Shown: positions 461 through 36,312 of the stretch, piece by piece
How the letters are laid out: each line of letters starts with the position of its first letter
Numbering within the stretch: position 1 is the stretch's first letter
NCBI RefSeq assembly: GCF_023223645.1
Contig: NZ_JALKBY010000020.1
Span: 1 to 43,526 of the forward strand
From: Natroniella sulfidigena
GTDB lineage: Bacteria > Bacillota > Halanaerobiia > Halobacteroidales > Halobacteroidaceae
Direction of reading: 5' to 3'
Length of the DNA stretch: 43,526 bases
Notes under the pieces: model-generated
What the model was told of the DNA's origin: nothing
The model's input: only the letters and a program-made list of their open reading frames with translations
Database searches by the model: none
Position numbers and translations under genes: made by a program

Positions 461-1024
461 TTGAGATTACAGCAAGGGGTTGAATATTCTCACTCCATTT
501 TAACAGAACAGTTATTTGAAGGGGCCAACGTAGTAGATGCTACCGTTGGCAATGGTAATGATACTGAATTTTTAGCAGAATTGGTAGGAGATGAAGGACA
601 AGTTTGGGGCTTTGATATTCAACAGCAAGCAATTGAAACTACTAAAGATAAACTGGCAGAGTCTGGATTATTAAAGCAGGTAACTTTAATTCAAGATGGG
701 CATCAGAAGTTGGCTTCATACATAAACGAAGAAGTTGATGGGATCTTATTTAATTTAGGTTATTTACCTGGAGCAGATAAGAAGATTACTACAACAGTAG
801 AGACTACTTTACAAGCGGTCAAAGCTGGCTTGGAAATATTAACTAAAGGTGGAGTAATGATAATTGTAATTTATACTGGCCATCAAGCTGGAAAAAAGGA
901 AGCAGAAGTTCTCTTAGAGTATGCTCAAGACTTAAATTACAAAGAATATAATGTACTACACTACCACTTTATTAATCAGGCTAAGAAGCCACCAGAAACA
1001 GTAGTTATAAAGAGCAGAGAATAG
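461..1024 (+). CDS. mnmM: MnmM/YtqB-type tRNA wobble-uridine methyltransferase
   Basis: A class I SAM-dependent methyltransferase of 187 aa, the full length for the YtqB family (Pfam rRNA methylase, PF06962). Residues 24-30 (VDATVGN) form the SAM-binding motif I, FD at about 50 is the acidic end of strand 2, and FNLGYLPG at 98-105 is the family's signature. The B. subtilis homologue methylates nm5s2U to mnm5s2U in tRNA; this function is assigned by family. The start is TTG, set by GGGAGGG at 446-452. The TAG stop lies in the first unit of a 7-bp tandem array. In Bacillus ytqB is next to ytqA; here the ytqA homologue lies 0.8 kb on, beyond an insertion. Confidence 0.85.
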   Translation: MRLQQGVEYSHSILTEQLFEGANVVDATVGNGNDTEFLAELVGDEGQVWGFDIQQQAIETTKDKLAESGLLKQVTLIQDGHQKLASYINEEVDGILFNLGYLPGADKKITTTVETTLQAVKAGLEILTKGGVMIIVIYTGHQAGKKEAEVLLEYAQDLNYKEYNVLHYHFINQAKKPPETVVIKSRE

Positions 1025-1095
1025 TGAATAGTGAATAGTGAATAGTGAATAGTGAATAGTGAATAGTGAATAGTGAATAGTGAATAGTGAATAGT
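1019..1095 (+). repeat. Perfect tandem array of 11 GAATAGT heptamers
   Basis: Eleven uninterrupted copies of GAATAGT run from 1019 to 1095, starting inside the stop codon of the upstream methyltransferase gene. A complementary block, ACTATTCACTATTC, lies at 1741-1754 and continues as degenerate heptamers to about 1770. The array therefore looks like the left arm of a larger inverted structure that encloses the gene at 1163-1522. A perfect array of this kind should vary in copy number between strains. Confidence 0.95.
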
Positions 1096-1162
1096 GATCG
1101 GAGGAATAAAAACCCAAAGAAAGAAAATAATAATATAAAGATAACTTTGGGGGGGATTAGTG

Positions 1163-1522
1163 ATGAGAGAAAAAAGTATAGCTTATCAGAAGGCATTTGA
1201 TTTTTCAGTAGAAATTGTTGATTTGTATAAGTATTTGGTTAAAAATAAGAAAGAATATGTGTTATCTAAGCAGCTTTTAAGAAGTGGCACAAGTATCGCT
1301 GGAAATATCAAAGAAGGGATTTATGGTCAAAGTAAGAGTGACTTTATATCTAAATTATCTATTGCATTAAAGGAAGCTTCTGAGACTGAGTATTGGATTG
1401 AATTATTAGTAGAAACTGATTATTTGCAACAAGAAAAAGGGAGAGATTTAACTTCTGATGTAGTAGAAATCATAAAAATTTTAACTAAGAGTCTGAAAAC
1501 AGCAAAGAAAAGCAGAGGATAG
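1163..1522 (+). CDS. Four-helix-bundle protein (23S rRNA IVS / S23 family)
   Basis: A 119-aa protein of the four-helix-bundle family (TIGR02436). Family marks are AYQKAFDFSVEIVDLYKYL at the start, LSKQLLRSGTSIAGNIKEG at about 35-53, and the A-x-x-E-x-E-Y-W-I-E-L stretch at about 70-80. Such proteins are encoded by intervening sequences of 23S rRNA genes, and relatives include the Avd accessory protein of diversity-generating retroelements. Their role outside rRNA is unknown. ATG at 1163 is chosen, preceded by a GGGGGG run at 1149-1154; a GTG lies directly before it. The gene sits between repeat arms (1019-1095 and 1741-1770), and its TAG stop is inside a 60-bp direct repeat, so it looks like cargo of a repeat element. 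Confidence 0.85.
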   Translation: MREKSIAYQKAFDFSVEIVDLYKYLVKNKKEYVLSKQLLRSGTSIAGNIKEGIYGQSKSDFISKLSIALKEASETEYWIELLVETDYLQQEKGRDLTSDVVEIIKILTKSLKTAKKSRG

Positions 1523-1578
1523 AAAAAATCTAAGAGCGGATTTTTTCATCACGAAGGGTTCGAAGAACCCGGAGGGAG
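1519..1578 (+). repeat. 60-bp direct repeat, copy 1
   Basis: Identical over 60 bp to 1646-1705. It contains two hairpins: GAAAAAATC paired with GGATTTTTTC, which could act as a terminator, and GGGTTC-gaa-GAACCC. The stop codon of the four-helix-bundle gene (1520-1522) lies in its first bases. Confidence 0.95.
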
Positions 1579-1589
1579 AAGCTGGGAAA

Positions 1590-1625
1590 CAAATGTATAA
1601 TTTACAATGTACAATTTACAGTTAA
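1590..1625 (+). repeat. Solo heptamer arm between the 60-bp repeats
   Basis: Degenerate 7-bp units (ATGTATA, ATTTACA, ATGTACA, ATTTACA) like the arms of the hairpin elements elsewhere in the window. No complementary arm is seen close by. Confidence 0.6.
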
Positions 1626-1645
1626 AAACCAGGTGATAGAGAGTA

Positions 1646-1705
1646 ATAGAAAAAATCTAAGAGCGGATTTTTTCATCACGAAGGGTTCGAAGAACCCGGA
1701 GGGAG
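1646..1705 (+). repeat. 60-bp direct repeat, copy 2
   Basis: An exact copy of 1519-1578, 67 bp downstream of the first. No gene lies between the two copies, only a solo heptamer arm. Confidence 0.95.
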
Positions 1706-1737
1706 TGAATAGAGGTTTGTGTTAAAAGGTTTTGAAC

Positions 1738-1770
1738 TTAACTATTCACTATTCGTTATTAGTTATTAAC
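1738..1770 (+). repeat. Right heptamer arm complementary to the 1019-1095 array
   Basis: Read on the minus strand this is GTTAATA-ACTAATA-ACGAATA-GTGAATA-GTTAAG, a 7-bp period. Fourteen bases (1741-1754) are the exact complement of two GAATAGT units of the left array. It ends 12 bp before the ribosome site of the radical SAM gene. Confidence 0.8.
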
Positions 1771-1796
1771 TGCTTTTTACCGTGGGGGTTGAAAAA

Positions 1797-2741
1797 ATGG
1801 ATAAATATTATCGTTATTCTGATTACTTGAAGCATAAATATGGAACAAGGACTTATAAAATTCCAATTAATTTAGCACTGACCTGTCCTAATCGTGATGG
1901 GAATATAGCTGAGGGTGGTTGTATCTATTGTGGTGAGGGAGGAGCCAGTTTTTCTGAGGACCAAGAAGTAAATCGAGCTGAATTCTTAGAGAAAAAGGAA
2001 AGAATTGCTAAGAAGTATCGAGCTGAGAAGTTTATTGCTTACTTTCAAAATTTCACTAACACATATTTACCTTTAGAGCAACTAATGGGCAATATTAAGC
2101 AGGTGTTAGGAATAGATGAGGTTGTGGAGATTGCTTTGGCGACTAGACCAGATTGTACTAGTCAAGAGTATGTAGCCCAGATTATGGAGTTAATCGAGCA
2201 ATCAACTTCTGAACCTACCCTTACCTTTGAACTAGGATTACAGTCAACTAATTATCATACATTAGAAGAGATCAATCGAGGGCATACGCTTGCTGAATTT
2301 ATTGATGCAGTCTTGACTGCTCATCGCTATAATGCTGAAATAGGAGTCCATATCATACTGAATTTACCTGGTGATGATAAGCTAGATGCTAGAGAAGCAG
2401 CTAAGATAGTATCTTCATTAAAGGTAGAGAATGTAAAGTTACATGCGCTCTATATTAGAGAGGATACTCAGTTGGCTAAACAGTATCAGCAAGGACAGTT
2501 AGAGATGATCTCATTAGCTGAATATATTGATCGGGTGATTGAATTTTTGGAGTATTTAGATCCCAAGATAGCAGTGCAGAGATTGATTGGCAAAGCTCCT
2601 AGAGAAGGTACATTATTTGTAAATTGGGATTATAATTATGACCAGATCAATAATTTTATTATGGATGAGATGGAGCGAAGGGATAGTTGGCAAGGAAAGA
2701 AGTTTGATTATTTAGATGGTAAGGCTTTGTCTAAATTATAA
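1797..2741 (+). CDS. ytqA: YtqA-type radical SAM protein (TIGR01212 family)
   Basis: A 314-aa radical SAM enzyme. Its iron-sulfur cysteines are C30, C42 and C45, in TCPNRDGNIAEGGCIYC. This CX11CX2C spacing is typical of the YtqA/TIGR01212 family rather than the usual CX3CX2C. The SAM-binding GG-like stretch and the LGLQS and INRGHT motifs follow. The substrate is not established; its conserved neighbourhood with mnmM suggests a tRNA-related role, which is inference. An in-frame GTG at 1782 exists, but it overlaps GGGGG at 1784-1788, the likely ribosome site for ATG 1797. It is followed after 15 bp by a diguanylate cyclase gene. Confidence 0.85.
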   Translation: MDKYYRYSDYLKHKYGTRTYKIPINLALTCPNRDGNIAEGGCIYCGEGGASFSEDQEVNRAEFLEKKERIAKKYRAEKFIAYFQNFTNTYLPLEQLMGNIKQVLGIDEVVEIALATRPDCTSQEYVAQIMELIEQSTSEPTLTFELGLQSTNYHTLEEINRGHTLAEFIDAVLTAHRYNAEIGVHIILNLPGDDKLDAREAAKIVSSLKVENVKLHALYIREDTQLAKQYQQGQLEMISLAEYIDRVIEFLEYLDPKIAVQRLIGKAPREGTLFVNWDYNYDQINNFIMDEMERRDSWQGKKFDYLDGKALSKL

Positions 2742-4008: not shown

Positions 4009-4203
4009 ATGAAAATAATTGAAGAAAAAAAGATTGGTGAAAAATTAACTGTTGGTGTTCATAAGGAACATGGTGAAATTGGGATTTTTATAGCTTCTGA
4101 AGATGTATCAGCCAGCTGTGCTTTTAGACCACAAGAATGGGAGAAGTTTGTTGGAGTGATCAATGAAGCAGATCGGTTGCTTAAAGAGAATGAAGCAGAA
4201 TAA
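4009..4203 (+). CDS. Small protein of unknown function, 64 aa
   Basis: An acidic 64-aa protein with ATG after AGGAGG (3995-4000), in line with the 48-aa gene upstream. The first half reads as beta strands (EKLTVGVHKEHGEIGIFIAS) and the end as a helix (EKFVGVINEADRLLKENEAE). This resembles small PC4-like single-strand-binding folds only in outline; I do not recognise the family. A small hairpin (ATTGTC-aggt-GACAAT) follows the stop directly, then a strong bidirectional terminator. Confidence 0.6.
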   Translation: MKIIEEKKIGEKLTVGVHKEHGEIGIFIASEDVSASCAFRPQEWEKFVGVINEADRLLKENEAE

Positions 4204-4218
4204 AATTGTCAGGTGACA

Positions 4219-4350
4219 ATTTTAGTTTAAGGTTAAGTCTGAACTTAAAATTAAAATTAAATAATAAAAAACCCTTTTCTGAAATGTTAAATTAGAAGAG
4301 GGTTTTTTATTGGTTTTACTTAACCTTAAATTTGGACTCAGCCTTAGTTA
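4219..4350. repeat. Inverted-repeat element, copy 3, between convergent genes
   Basis: The left arm TTTAAGGTTAAGTCTGAACT and a diverged complementary right arm (TTAACCTTAAATTTGGACTC, then AGCCTTAGTTAA) enclose a terminator. The right edge contains the TAA stop (minus strand) of the DUF3786 gene. The arms use 6-bp units of the TTAAGG/TTAAGT type, like the element at 17239. The end motifs of the main family are not clear here. Confidence 0.55.
4265..4309. terminator. Bidirectional terminator
   Basis: AAAAAACCCTTTTCT pairs with AGAAGAGGGTTTTTT around a loop of about 12 bases. It has an A run on one side and a T run on the other, so it can serve both the plus-strand small genes and the minus-strand DUF3786 operon. 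Confidence 0.85.
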
Positions 4351-4998
4351 AAGGTTTTTAATAATTCCTTTGAAAGCCCAAACAGGTACACTAGCTACAA
4401 AAGCTAAATCTTCTGTAGGAAGATAAGAGATTACTGAAGCATCAAAGAGAACACTGCCTGATGGAGGTAACTCATCATCTCCTTCCCAGATTACATAAGT
4501 AACTGGGATCTTAGGAAAGACAGGAATAGTAACACTAGCATCACCTAGATCAGCTGACTTTCCCCCTAAGTATTTAGCAGCAGGAACCAATTTATCAGCA
4601 TTTTCACCAAATAATCTGACTAAAGGATTGGTTGCTCGCTTTTTAAAGGTGCTATAGTAAAAATCGCCTCCATTAGGCACTTCACGATAAGAGATCAATC
4701 TACCTTCAAGAGAAGCCCCGCTAGCTTGATTAAGATAATGCAAGATCAATACTTTGATTGGTAGTTGTACCTCTTGATCTTTAGCTGCAAAAGTTACCTC
4801 TCCTTCGGGATAGCTGATTAGATAATCTTCACCAGCCATGACTAACTTAAACTCCTGTTTAGCTTCATTATAGTCTGCTCCGCTGCGTTCAACTATTCCT
4901 TCAGGTTCGAGGGTAGTTAACTTTTCTTTTGCTTGCTTTAAAGCAGCAATGTAGTTGTTTTGCTTAATTTCAGTTTTAAATCTTTTCTCTTGAGCCAT
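4348..4998 (-). CDS. DUF3786 protein, paralogue A
   Basis: A 216-aa soluble protein of the DUF3786 family (PF12654), which is found mainly in anaerobes. Central and C-terminal marks are the KVLILHYL helix at about 82-89, then PVTYVIWEGDDELPPSGSVL and LFDAS..L.TEDLAF at about 165-205. It is clearly homologous to the product at 7698-8348, which shares PxxPxTYxxWxxDDELPxSxxxLFD and LxTEDLAF. No cysteine cluster is seen, although some family members are fused to ferredoxin-like domains. The function is unknown. It is the last gene of a minus-strand cluster with a MoxR ATPase and a VWA protein, 42 bp below the VWA gene, so it may be a client of that pair. Start ATG follows AAAGGAG. Confidence 0.8.
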   Translation of the reverse strand: MAQEKRFKTEIKQNNYIAALKQAKEKLTTLEPEGIVERSGADYNEAKQEFKLVMAGEDYLISYPEGEVTFAAKDQEVQLPIKVLILHYLNQASGASLEGRLISYREVPNGGDFYYSTFKKRATNPLVRLFGENADKLVPAAKYLGGKSADLGDASVTIPVFPKIPVTYVIWEGDDELPPSGSVLFDASVISYLPTEDLAFVASVPVWAFKGIIKNL

Positions 4999-13177: not shown

Positions 13178-13882
13178 ATGTCAATTAAAGTTGAAGAGAA
13201 AGTGGATTGTTTGATCTGTGGAGTAGAAGTTACATATTTAAAGCAAGCACGTGAAGTTAGTTGTTATTATTGTGGTGTTGAAGAAGAAGCTTATTTTTGT
13301 TGTGAAGACGGTCATTATGTCTGTAATCAATGTCATGCTCAAGATGCATTGGCAATTATAAAAAATACCTGTTTAGTTACTCATGCAAAGGATCCAATTG
13401 ACATTGCGGAAAGGTTGATGGAACATCCTCAAATCTCGATGCATGGGCCAGAACACCATGCTTTAGTTCCTGCTGTTTTAGTAACTGCCTATCAAAATTA
13501 TGTAGGACAACAAGATAAGAAAGCTATTACAGAAGCAATTAAGCGGGGGCAGGAAGTACCGGGAGGCTATTGTGGTCTGTATGGAGCTTGTGGTGGAGGG
13601 ATTGGAGCGGGAGTTGCCGTCAGTATCTTATTAGAAGCGACTCCACTAACAGCTGATGAACGTTCCCATGCTAATTGGATGACTGCTCAAGCTTTAGAGG
13701 CTATTGCAGATGCAGGAGGAGCTAGATGTTGTAAAAAAGCAACTCGGGTTGCTTTAGAAGAGGGGGTAAGTTATTTATCTGATCTTTTTGATCTAAATTG
13801 GGTACAAGAGTTGGATTTAGATGTGAAGTGTAATTATATTCAGTATAATCGGGAATGTGATCTTAGTTGTGATTATCGGTAA
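13178..13882 (+). CDS. DUF5714 cysteine-rich protein
   Basis: 234 aa. The N-terminal 55 residues carry two zinc-ribbon-like pairs (CLIC, CYYC) and then CCEDGHYVCNQC. The main domain has HGPEHHALVPAVLVTAY (about 88-105), PGGYCGLYGACGGGIGAG (about 127-145), GGARCCKK and a C-terminal CNYIQYNRECDLSC. This is the DUF5714 family, common in methanogens, sulfate reducers and Clostridia, where it is sometimes fused to a methyltransferase. The function is unknown; the conserved cysteines and histidines suggest metal or cluster binding. Its TAA stop is the first codon of the repeat end TAATTACAATAATGTGGCAC. Confidence 0.8.
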   Translation: MSIKVEEKVDCLICGVEVTYLKQAREVSCYYCGVEEEAYFCCEDGHYVCNQCHAQDALAIIKNTCLVTHAKDPIDIAERLMEHPQISMHGPEHHALVPAVLVTAYQNYVGQQDKKAITEAIKRGQEVPGGYCGLYGACGGGIGAGVAVSILLEATPLTADERSHANWMTAQALEAIADAGGARCCKKATRVALEEGVSYLSDLFDLNWVQELDLDVKCNYIQYNRECDLSCDYR

Positions 13883-14085
13883 TTACAATAATGTGGCACA
13901 AAAGTGCCACATTATTGAGTTGACAGTTTACGGTTTACAGTTGACAGTTAAGATCAAAATCTTAAAATCTTAAGAGCCATGAAAAGCCTTAGAATTATAG
14001 GTTTAGATTAGTTTTGGGTTTAAGTTTTAAATGGTTTTAACTGTCAACCGTCAACTGTTCACTGTCAACTGATATAAAGTGTAAC
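13880..14085 (+). repeat. Heptamer-armed hairpin element, copy 7
   Basis: The left end AATTACAATAATGTGGCAC forms a hairpin with GTGCCACATTATT. The left arm GTTGACAGTTTACGGTTTAC pairs with the right arm AACTGTCAACCGTCAACTGT. The end is CTGATATAAAGTGTAACTT, so the terminal hairpin is damaged. The 90-bp centre (AAGATCAAAATC to AAATGGTTTTA) is nearly the same as in copy 11 at 20977. Confidence 0.85.
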
Positions 14086-17238: not shown

Positions 17239-17353
17239 GTTAATTACAATTTAGTTTAAGTTTGAGTTTGAGGCTAAGCCAACCGTTAAAAGCATAGGGG
17301 TTTAGGATTTACTTAAACTTAGACTTAGCCTTAAACTTAAGCTTTATATCAAT
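17239..17353 (+). repeat. Hairpin element with hexamer arms, copy 9
   Basis: Left end TTAATTACAATTTAGTTTAA, then 6-bp units TTTAAG/TTTGAG/TTTGAG/GCTAAG. The right arm CTTAAACTTAGACTTAGCCT pairs with it, ending TTTATATCAATAA. It follows the clpB stop directly. Confidence 0.75.
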
Positions 17354-17812: not shown

Positions 17813-18120
17813 TATTACAATATTGTGTCACTTTCGATATGCTATTAACATGAGGAAAGTTTCTCGTTCGGAAAGATTTTTTCTGAGTTTCTAAGACTCA
17901 CCTCCAATCAAACAAGAGCAAGTTAATTTTAAAATAGGAAAATTAACTAATTCATGCTCTGATTTGATTTCCGGTTCATCAAGAAACTAAACGAAAAAAT
18001 CTAGATGTCACTGCGAAACATTCCTCATGATAGTTTGGATTTGTTTTAATGATTTTAACTGTCAACTGTACACTGTAAACTGTCAACTGATATAAAGTGG
18101 CAAAGTGCCACTTTATATCA
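17813..18120 (+). repeat. Large nested-hairpin element, copy 10
   Basis: Left end TATTACAATATTGTGTCAC. The core (17849-18030) folds on itself throughout: CATGAGGAA with TTCCTCATG, AGATTTTTTC with GAAAAAATCT, AGTTTCT with AGAAACT, AATCAAA with TTTGATT, GAGCA with TGCTC, TTAATTTT with AAAATTAA. A right heptamer arm (AACTGTCAACTGTACACTGT) and the end hairpin GATATAAAGTGGCA-aag-TGCCACTTTATATC follow. It is nearly identical to copy 12 at 25798. Confidence 0.9.
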
Positions 18121-20976: not shown

Positions 20977-21169
20977 GATTACAATATTGAGTTGACAGTT
21001 TACAGTTTACAGTTAACAGTTAAGATCAAAATCTTAAGAGCTATGAAAAGCCTTAGAATTATAGGTTTAGATTGGTTTTGGGTTTAAGTTTTAAATGGTT
21101 TTAACTGTCAACCGTTAACTATTCACTGTCAACTGATATAAAGTGGCACTTTGCCACTTTATATCAATA
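20977..21169 (+). repeat. Heptamer-armed hairpin element, copy 11
   Basis: Left end GATTACAATATTGAGTTGAC. The left arm of ACAGTTT/ACAGTTA units (20994-21021) pairs with AACTGTCAACCGTTAACTAT (21103-21122). The end hairpin is GATATAAAGTGGCA-ctt-TGCCACTTTATATC. The final ATTGATATAA, read on the minus strand, contributes the last two codons and stop of azlD. The centre matches copy 7. Confidence 0.9.
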
Positions 21170-25797: not shown

Positions 25798-26112
25798 TAC
25801 AATTATGTGTCACTTTCGATATGCTATTAACATGAGGAAAGTTTCTCGTTCGGAAAGATTTTTTCTGAGTTTCTAAGACTCACCTCCAATCAAACAAGAG
25901 CAAGTTAATTTTAAAATAGGAAAATTAACTAATTCATGCTCTGATTTGATTTCCGGTTCATCAAGAAACTAAACGAAAAAATCTAGATGTCACTGCGAAA
26001 CATTCCTCATGATAGTTTGGATTTGTTTTTATGGTTTTAATGATTTTAACTGTCAACTGTACACTGTAAACTGTCAACTGATATATAGTGGCAAAGTGCC
26101 ACTATATATCAA
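25798..26112 (+). repeat. Large nested-hairpin element, copy 12
   Basis: The same as copy 10 at 17813 over its length, apart from one 9-bp insertion (near 26027), the left-end base changes and the terminal hairpin. There GATATAAAGTGGCA..TGCCACTTTATATC has become GATATATAGTGGCA..TGCCACTATATATC, a paired change that keeps the stem. It fills most of the gap between the lipoprotein and zinc-ribbon genes; the rest (26113-26203) has no gene. Confidence 0.92.
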
Positions 26113-35851: not shown

Positions 35852-36312
35852 CAGTGAATAGATAACAGTGAATAATAAATAGTGGGAAGAGCAAAGATTA
35901 ATTACAATTATGTGGCACTTTCGTGCCACAAAGCTGTGAGTCATGAGTAAACGATTTTTGTTACGGAGAGTCTTTTTAAGACTCGTAGGGTGTGCTATGA
36001 GCTAAAATCATTAAAAACATAGAAATTAAATATCATAGCCATATGTTTTAACGTATGGCGGTCGTTGTTAAAGGAATCTTTAAAAGGCATGAGCCACAGG
36101 TTTTAACCACTCCAAGAGTATTTCTTCATTCAGAAAAAACACTTCACTCAGGGCGCTGTAGCTTGGATTTAATGATAAAATAAGGATTTGTTTTTATGAT
36201 TTTGAACTCTTACGGGTCTTATCAGACCCTTCATGAAAATCATAAAGACCATATCTGCTCACGACTCAAAGCTCATAGCTCAAAGCTAGTGTCATAAAAT
36301 GACACTAGCTTT
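35852..36312 (+). repeat. Composite repeat element, copy 13
   Basis: It begins with a solo heptamer arm (GCAGTGAATAGATAACAGTG). The left end TAATTACAATTATGTGGCAC has a GTGGCAC-tttc-GTGCCAC hairpin. Further on are AGCTGTG-AGTCATG heptamers (35930 region) and complementary AGCTTTG/AGCTATG units at 36262-36288 (minus strand). It ends in a perfect 14-bp stem (AAAGCTAGTGTCAT-aaa-ATGACACTAGCTTT, 36282-36312). The centre shares GCCATATGTTTTAACGTATG and CCACAGGTTTTAACC with copy 14. The end holds the TAG stop of the DUF3231 gene. It fills the whole gap; no gene is seen. Confidence 0.75.

Follow-up and report, generated by a model that had tools for sequence, protein, structure and literature searches.

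A four-helix-bundle gene between inverted heptamer arms in Natroniella sulfidigena: a likely copy of a widespread minimal mobile element

Between the tRNA modification genes mnmM and mnmL of Natroniella sulfidigena lies a gene for a four-helix-bundle protein (IVP), enclosed by inverted arrays of a heptamer. Are the gene and its arms one unit, and can such a unit move? We analysed the whole 43,526-nt stretch of DNA that carries the locus (the window) and compared the locus with IVP genes of other bacteria. The feature is probably (about 0.72) one copy of a widespread minimal mobile element of the form arm, IVP gene, inverted arm, whose protein would recognise its own arms. The unity of arms and gene and their mobility are well supported; protein-arm binding and the chemistry of insertion are inferred. 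The overall interpretation in the original prediction, made from the letters of the window, was supported in part.

The locus and its relatives

The IVP gene exceeded the curated cut-offs of Pfam PF05635 (23S_rRNA_IVP; E 5e-31, 107.4 bits against 33.8) and TIGR02436 (E 7e-33, 113.1 bits against 24). With a profile of the window IVP clade, its nearest solved relative was 2RLD (E 3e-45). Allowing one mismatch at most, the window contains 11 occurrences of GAATAGTGAATAGT, where 0.04 would be expected: 10 inside the left array and one on the minus strand at 1741-1754. The left-arm rotation TGAATAG agrees with the family consensus TKVAYAR. The right arm is an imperfect inverted counterpart of 34 nt, 79% complementary to the left, and the two arms pair in the folded transcript (z = -5.8 versus shuffles). 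The stop codon of mnmM (1022-1024) lies within the first heptamer, so the array begins inside the last mnmM codons. The analysis confirmed what had been read from the sequence, a perfect 11-unit GAATAGT array and its inverted counterpart around a four-helix-bundle gene.

Table 1 Parts of the locus and its two neighbours, in window positions
Feature	Position	Strand	Evidence
mnmM (tRNA U34 methyltransferase), upstream neighbour	461..1024	+	NF053511, E 1e-71
Left arm, perfect GAATAGT x 11.3	1019..1097	+	TRF, 100% match
IVP / four-helix-bundle protein gene, 119 aa	1163..1522	+	PF05635, TIGR02436
60-bp core of gene-less heptamer hairpins, copy 1	1519..1578	+	
Short heptamer array of another flavour (TTTACAA/TTTACAG), between the 60-bp copies	1591..1627	+	
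60-bp core, copy 2	1646..1705	+	
Right arm, inverted degenerate GAATAGT heptamers	1738..1771	-	
mnmL/ytqA (tRNA modification radical SAM protein), downstream neighbour	1797..2741	+	TIGR01212, E 2e-88

The IVP gene is the sole gene within the element, which encodes no Y1 or other transposase. No reverse transcriptase or template/variable repeat adjoins it; the neighbours are mnmM and mnmL. Rfam matched no family in the window, and the element lies between these two genes, outside 23S rRNA. The left arm is long and perfect and the right arm short and degenerate, and these unequal arms suggest that the window copy may be decaying or expanding by slippage. A window-like left arm, grown to a very long, near-perfect TAATTGA array, was seen in an mvaD-mvk gap (L368, genome G079). 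The arms seem prone to slippage.

Two 60-bp direct repeats had also been assigned to the element. They are identical to each other, but the repeat is dispersed (40 matches in the source genome): it adjoins the inner side of the arms in gene-less heptamer hairpins, and 18 other IVP loci of the relatives tested lack it. It is therefore a secondary module, and its assignment to the IVP element did not hold. Together with a spacer, the 60-bp core forms a 127-bp unit, and window positions 1519-1705 hold two copies of the core. About four tandem copies of this unit follow a diguanylate cyclase gene in a same-genus relative, G001 (L190, reverse complement about 4120-4580).

In G001, the mnmM-mnmL gap holds a gene-less GAATATT hairpin and no empty site; its IVP closest to that of the window (68% identical) is found at another site, between GAATATT arms (L073). 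Two further members of the family have a 95-bp spacer without arms (G004) and an unrelated gene (G002) in the gap. The original prediction had proposed a search for a precise empty site between ytqB and ytqA (mnmM and mnmL); with a hairpin, an arm-free gap and an unrelated gene in the three genomes, the insertion junction could not be fixed here. The closest case to the window came from Cloacimonadota (L113), with GAATAGT in both arms and an IVP 64% identical to the query. No relative carried an armless IVP gene at the window's site, and other arms of the repeat family do accompany IVP genes.

Heptamer arms accompany IVP genes and change with them

The source genome has four PF05635 genes, and each has heptamer arms of a different flavour. 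A wide sample of 80 more loci, chosen for their similarity to one IVP clade, covered bacteria of many phyla; another 25 came from relatives, and 104 loci were counted. Period-7 arrays lay within 300 bp of 92 of these PF05635 loci, across phyla, and periods 5, 6 and 8-12 gave 0-3 at the same loci. Control windows of the same geometry elsewhere in the loci had arrays on either side in 9.7% and on both sides in 0.3%. Left and right flanks matched in the inverted sense at 80/104 loci, versus 0.6% of control windows and 8% of flanks taken from different loci, and the two arms of one locus agreed in that sense at 6-7 of 7 positions in 60 of 70 cases. About one locus in ten lacked a clear array, and on inspection many of these have imperfect arms. 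A broader PF05635 set from ten genomes, in which single Flavobacterium genomes hold 10 or 11 IVP copies, had an array on at least one side in 22 of 30 cases. Other four-helix-bundle genes with heptamer arms, which the original prediction proposed to look for, are numerous, and its view that gene and arms are one unit outside rRNA was supported. No report of a general IVP-arm association was found in the open-access literature, to which the search was confined.

Read in the sense of the gene, the heptamers have the consensus TKVAYAR (4.16 bits versus 3.04 +/- 0.10 for shuffled letters), and their strand polarity is fixed (4.39 versus 3.67 +/- 0.09 when strands were flipped at random). The arms comprise about 4-6 heptamers, and the stem has a median length of 34 bp (quartiles 31-40). 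Heptamer similarity rises with the identity of the IVP proteins (Mantel r 0.25, p < 0.0005), also for pairs under 60% identity (r 0.14, p 0.017). The solved relatives 2RLD and 2GSC have five chains each, and PMC4990558 describes the ring of five subunits. With a stem of about five heptamers, one heptamer per subunit is therefore a natural hypothesis.

Variation at one site in Alcanivorax allowed arm pairing to be followed in detail. The element lies between glyA and nrdR in 16 of 17 species, with four arm flavours (TTGACAG, TTGATAA, TTAACAG and TTAATAA) and both arms altered in concert. In the 31-pair stem, 13 pairs changed on both sides, and 49 cells were compensatory against 22.4 +/- 3.7 in shuffles (reached in 0/500). 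The compensatory signal was lost when the register was slid by 1-3 columns. Arm pairing is under selection, and the IVP itself is under purifying selection (median dN/dS 0.12). Phylogenetic analyses revealed that the IVP tree sorts by flavour; the flanking tree, built from the genes glyA and nrdR, supports other groupings, for example G057+G054, G058+G056 and G053+G063. In AU tests, flank data reject the flavour groups (p below 1e-28) and IVP data reject the host groups (p below 2e-5), a conflict that could come partly from recombination of glyA/nrdR and not of the element. Arms and IVP are inherited, transferred and replaced as a unit, so that each IVP keeps its own heptamer flavour.

Movement of the element and what might drive it

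Clostridium carboxidivorans holds three copies, 93-95% identical over about 650-700 bp, in unrelated surroundings. Their ends coincide with the arms or lie just beyond them (AGAGGACA...TGTCCTCT), and a fourth near-identical copy lies between unrelated flanks in C. muellerianum. At one C. carboxidivorans locus (L247), the flanks outside the arms are themselves inverted (TAAGCATAATGCGAAGCA) and related to the flanks of L137 and L261, perhaps as an outer element layer or nested hairpins.

Empty sites without arms were found in relatives, as predicted, in the mvaD-mvk gap of Flavobacterium. The element is present there in 6 of the 29 species inspected, and G118 and G080, with flanks 88-89% identical, have a 64-65-bp spacer and no arms. 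The insertion replaced the last codons, the stop codon and the spacer. IVP and arms are associated across mvaD-mvk sites (Fisher p 0.0003), with one filled site below the array threshold. Neither the Clostridium copies nor the comparison of empty and filled Flavobacterium sites showed a target duplication, but the target spacers are short and diverged. Plasmid and phage collections yielded distant IVP relatives only, too remote to supply near-identical empty/filled pairs; IVP genes are common on plasmids of Nostoc and other cyanobacteria (records H1-H30).

Both neighbours are co-directional with the IVP gene in 69 loci and both opposite in 3. We interpret this sense bias as pointing either to a life at the RNA level (hairpin, excision by RNase III, binding of the own transcript) or to selection against antisense copies.

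Gene-less heptamer hairpins occur alongside the IVP elements. In the window, hairpins or arms of the TTGACAG/TTTACAG flavour are seen at 262-413, 13880-14081, 18053-18093, 20985-21030 and 26044-26084, several of them ending beside a small GTGGCA/TGCCAC palindrome. The window also holds an ACTTAA-like six-mer array (17311-17344) and an AGCTCAA-like seven-mer array (36258-36287). Comparison of other window hairpins with G001 gave no clean junctions, the intergenic DNA being too diverged.

These hairpins raise the alternative of an independent repeat family, moved by another enzyme such as a Y1 transposase (RAYT), in which the IVP gene is a captured passenger. Genomes of the window's genus do carry many gene-less hairpins (about 30 arrays per 100 kb), and the 200-bp type at 13880-14081 is present in G001 in at least 40 copies. 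Small GTGGCAC palindromes terminate some of the hairpins, and Y1 transposases were detected in 27 of 31 genomes tested. However, in most IVP genomes arrays outside IVP loci are near background, which makes the arms mainly a feature of IVP loci. The arms also accompany IVP across phyla and track its identity, and the IVP genomes G004, G045 and G049 have no Y1, so a Y1 transposase was rejected as universal partner. G051, a genome without IVP, has almost no arrays. We therefore regard a passenger role as unlikely. Arm flavour bears on a possible dependence of gene-less hairpins on IVP. In 243 kb of the source genome, 50 of 72 arrays match its four IVP flavours, versus 21.7 +/- 10.1 when four heptamers were drawn at random from other loci. 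Two results weigh against the mobile-element reading: in Alcanivorax the flavours of IVP genes and dispersed hairpins match only weakly (p 0.076, with part of the sampled regions biased), and several Halanaerobiales genomes that carry IVP are not rich in gene-less hairpins. The gene-less hairpins would depend on IVP in trans, for which flavour evidence is good in the window genome, weak in Alcanivorax and helped by G051.

Could the armed cassette instead serve the host, as an operon regulatory or mRNA-processing module (an RNase III site, attenuator or stabiliser)? Purifying selection on IVP, the nearly constant presence at the Alcanivorax site and the sense orientation between cistrons would fit such a role. 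Set against it are a patchy distribution in which close relatives have empty sites, several nearly identical copies in unrelated places, horizontal replacement, a copy in 23S rRNA and diverse neighbours, and we consider a cellular function very unlikely.

Least probable of all is that a reverse transcriptase working in trans copies the hairpin RNA with IVP into DNA, in the manner of Avd and its enzyme: IVP-Avd homology, sense insertions, the lack of a visible target duplication and RVT_1 in all nine Halanaerobiales IVP genomes tested speak for it, but RVT_1 was not found in 13 of 34 genomes, including the IVP-rich G044 (11 IVP) and G050 (10 IVP) as well as G041, G058 and G064, and Avd loci have no heptamer arms. 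Such an enzyme was accordingly rejected as general mover.

The minimal mobile element remains our preferred reading. Neither RVT_1 nor Y1 is universal, and the element may be inserted by the replication and repair machinery of the host, acting on single-stranded hairpins.

Relation to rRNA intervening sequences and a model of the element

The original prediction connected the gene with the intervening sequences (IVS) of 23S rRNA. One locus shows this relation directly: at L067 (1440-1801, genome G013), an IVP gene lies in helix 45 of 23S rRNA between inverted heptamer arms, and is broken by a second, internal heptamer array of the same flavour. The Coxiella IVS is reported to carry the heptamer GACAGAT, repeated three to four times, immediately ahead of the S23 ORF, and to be removed from the RNA by RNase III (PMC4990558). 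Rotated, GACAGAT reads TGACAGA, which differs in a single letter from the common TGACAGT flavour. Given L067 and the Coxiella heptamers, the rRNA and intercistronic forms are most simply one kind of element. The IVS of Leptospira, Coxiella and others share with it the protein family, terminal inverted repeats that form a stem around the ORF, fixed sites and a sporadic spread. The difference is that almost every copy in this analysis, that of the window included, is found between protein genes, with a heptamer flavour that varies per copy and, in some genomes, gene-less relatives that have spread.

A hint at diversity-generating retroelements did not carry over. Avd genes match PF05635, IVP and Avd are homologous, and both are four-helix-bundle proteins with a small nucleic-acid partner. 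At L068 (90-2977, minus strand; genome G016), a target with a variable C-terminus, Avd and a reverse transcriptase follow in order. This locus and a second Avd locus, L075, were clear negatives of the arm scan, serving as negative control, and had template/variable-repeat-like sequence beside them. Armed IVP elements, in contrast, have no reverse transcriptase of their own, and RVT_1 is missing from many IVP-rich genomes.

REP/REPIN-RAYT (Y1) systems and bacterial MITEs resemble the element in having one gene between hairpin repeats and many gene-less hairpins of the same flavour. The IVP element differs from them in its lack of Y1, its arms of tandem heptamers, its sense bias and the absence of a visible target duplication. 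The TAACTGA repeats of marine Beggiatoaceae are likewise dispersed intergenic heptamer arrays of partly similar sequence. Their description presents them as direct repeats that may have a part in regulation, in a text without four-helix or S23 proteins (PMC4679880).

Gene and repeats are gained, lost and altered together, which gives them the look of a single, hitherto unrecognised type of very small mobile element. In the model that we propose, the arms pair and the element sits in sense between cistrons, often giving the upstream gene its stop codon; when it occasionally lands within 23S rRNA, it would be a classical intervening sequence. The IVP ring would recognise the polar heptamers of its own element, as RNA or single-stranded DNA, perhaps with each subunit taking one heptamer; five of them (5 x 7 = 35 nt) would nearly equal the stem in length. 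Such recognition could drive retention or spread, and the flavour matching agrees with the suggestion that the protein promotes the spread or maintenance of the repeats. Gene-less hairpins with the same arms, including others in the window, would be non-autonomous derivatives. By analogy with the Coxiella rRNA form (PMC4990558), RNase III probably removes the hairpin from the transcript, so that the insert would do almost no harm.

A broader claim would be that these copies form a phylum-spanning class of minimal elements, in which a ring-forming IVP is the sole coded part and meets one polar heptamer per subunit, homing between cistrons proceeds without an own transposase or reverse transcriptase, and the 23S IVS are a special case. 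We put this forward tentatively, at somewhat short of even odds.

The function of IVP/S23 and the spread of rRNA intervening sequences have been described as unresolved (PMC4990558). The present analysis links the IVP protein with the heptamer arm as a nucleic-acid partner that can be recognised, in matched protein-arm pairs. It gives a context to many genes annotated merely as 'four helix bundle protein', and offers an origin for some dispersed heptamer hairpins.
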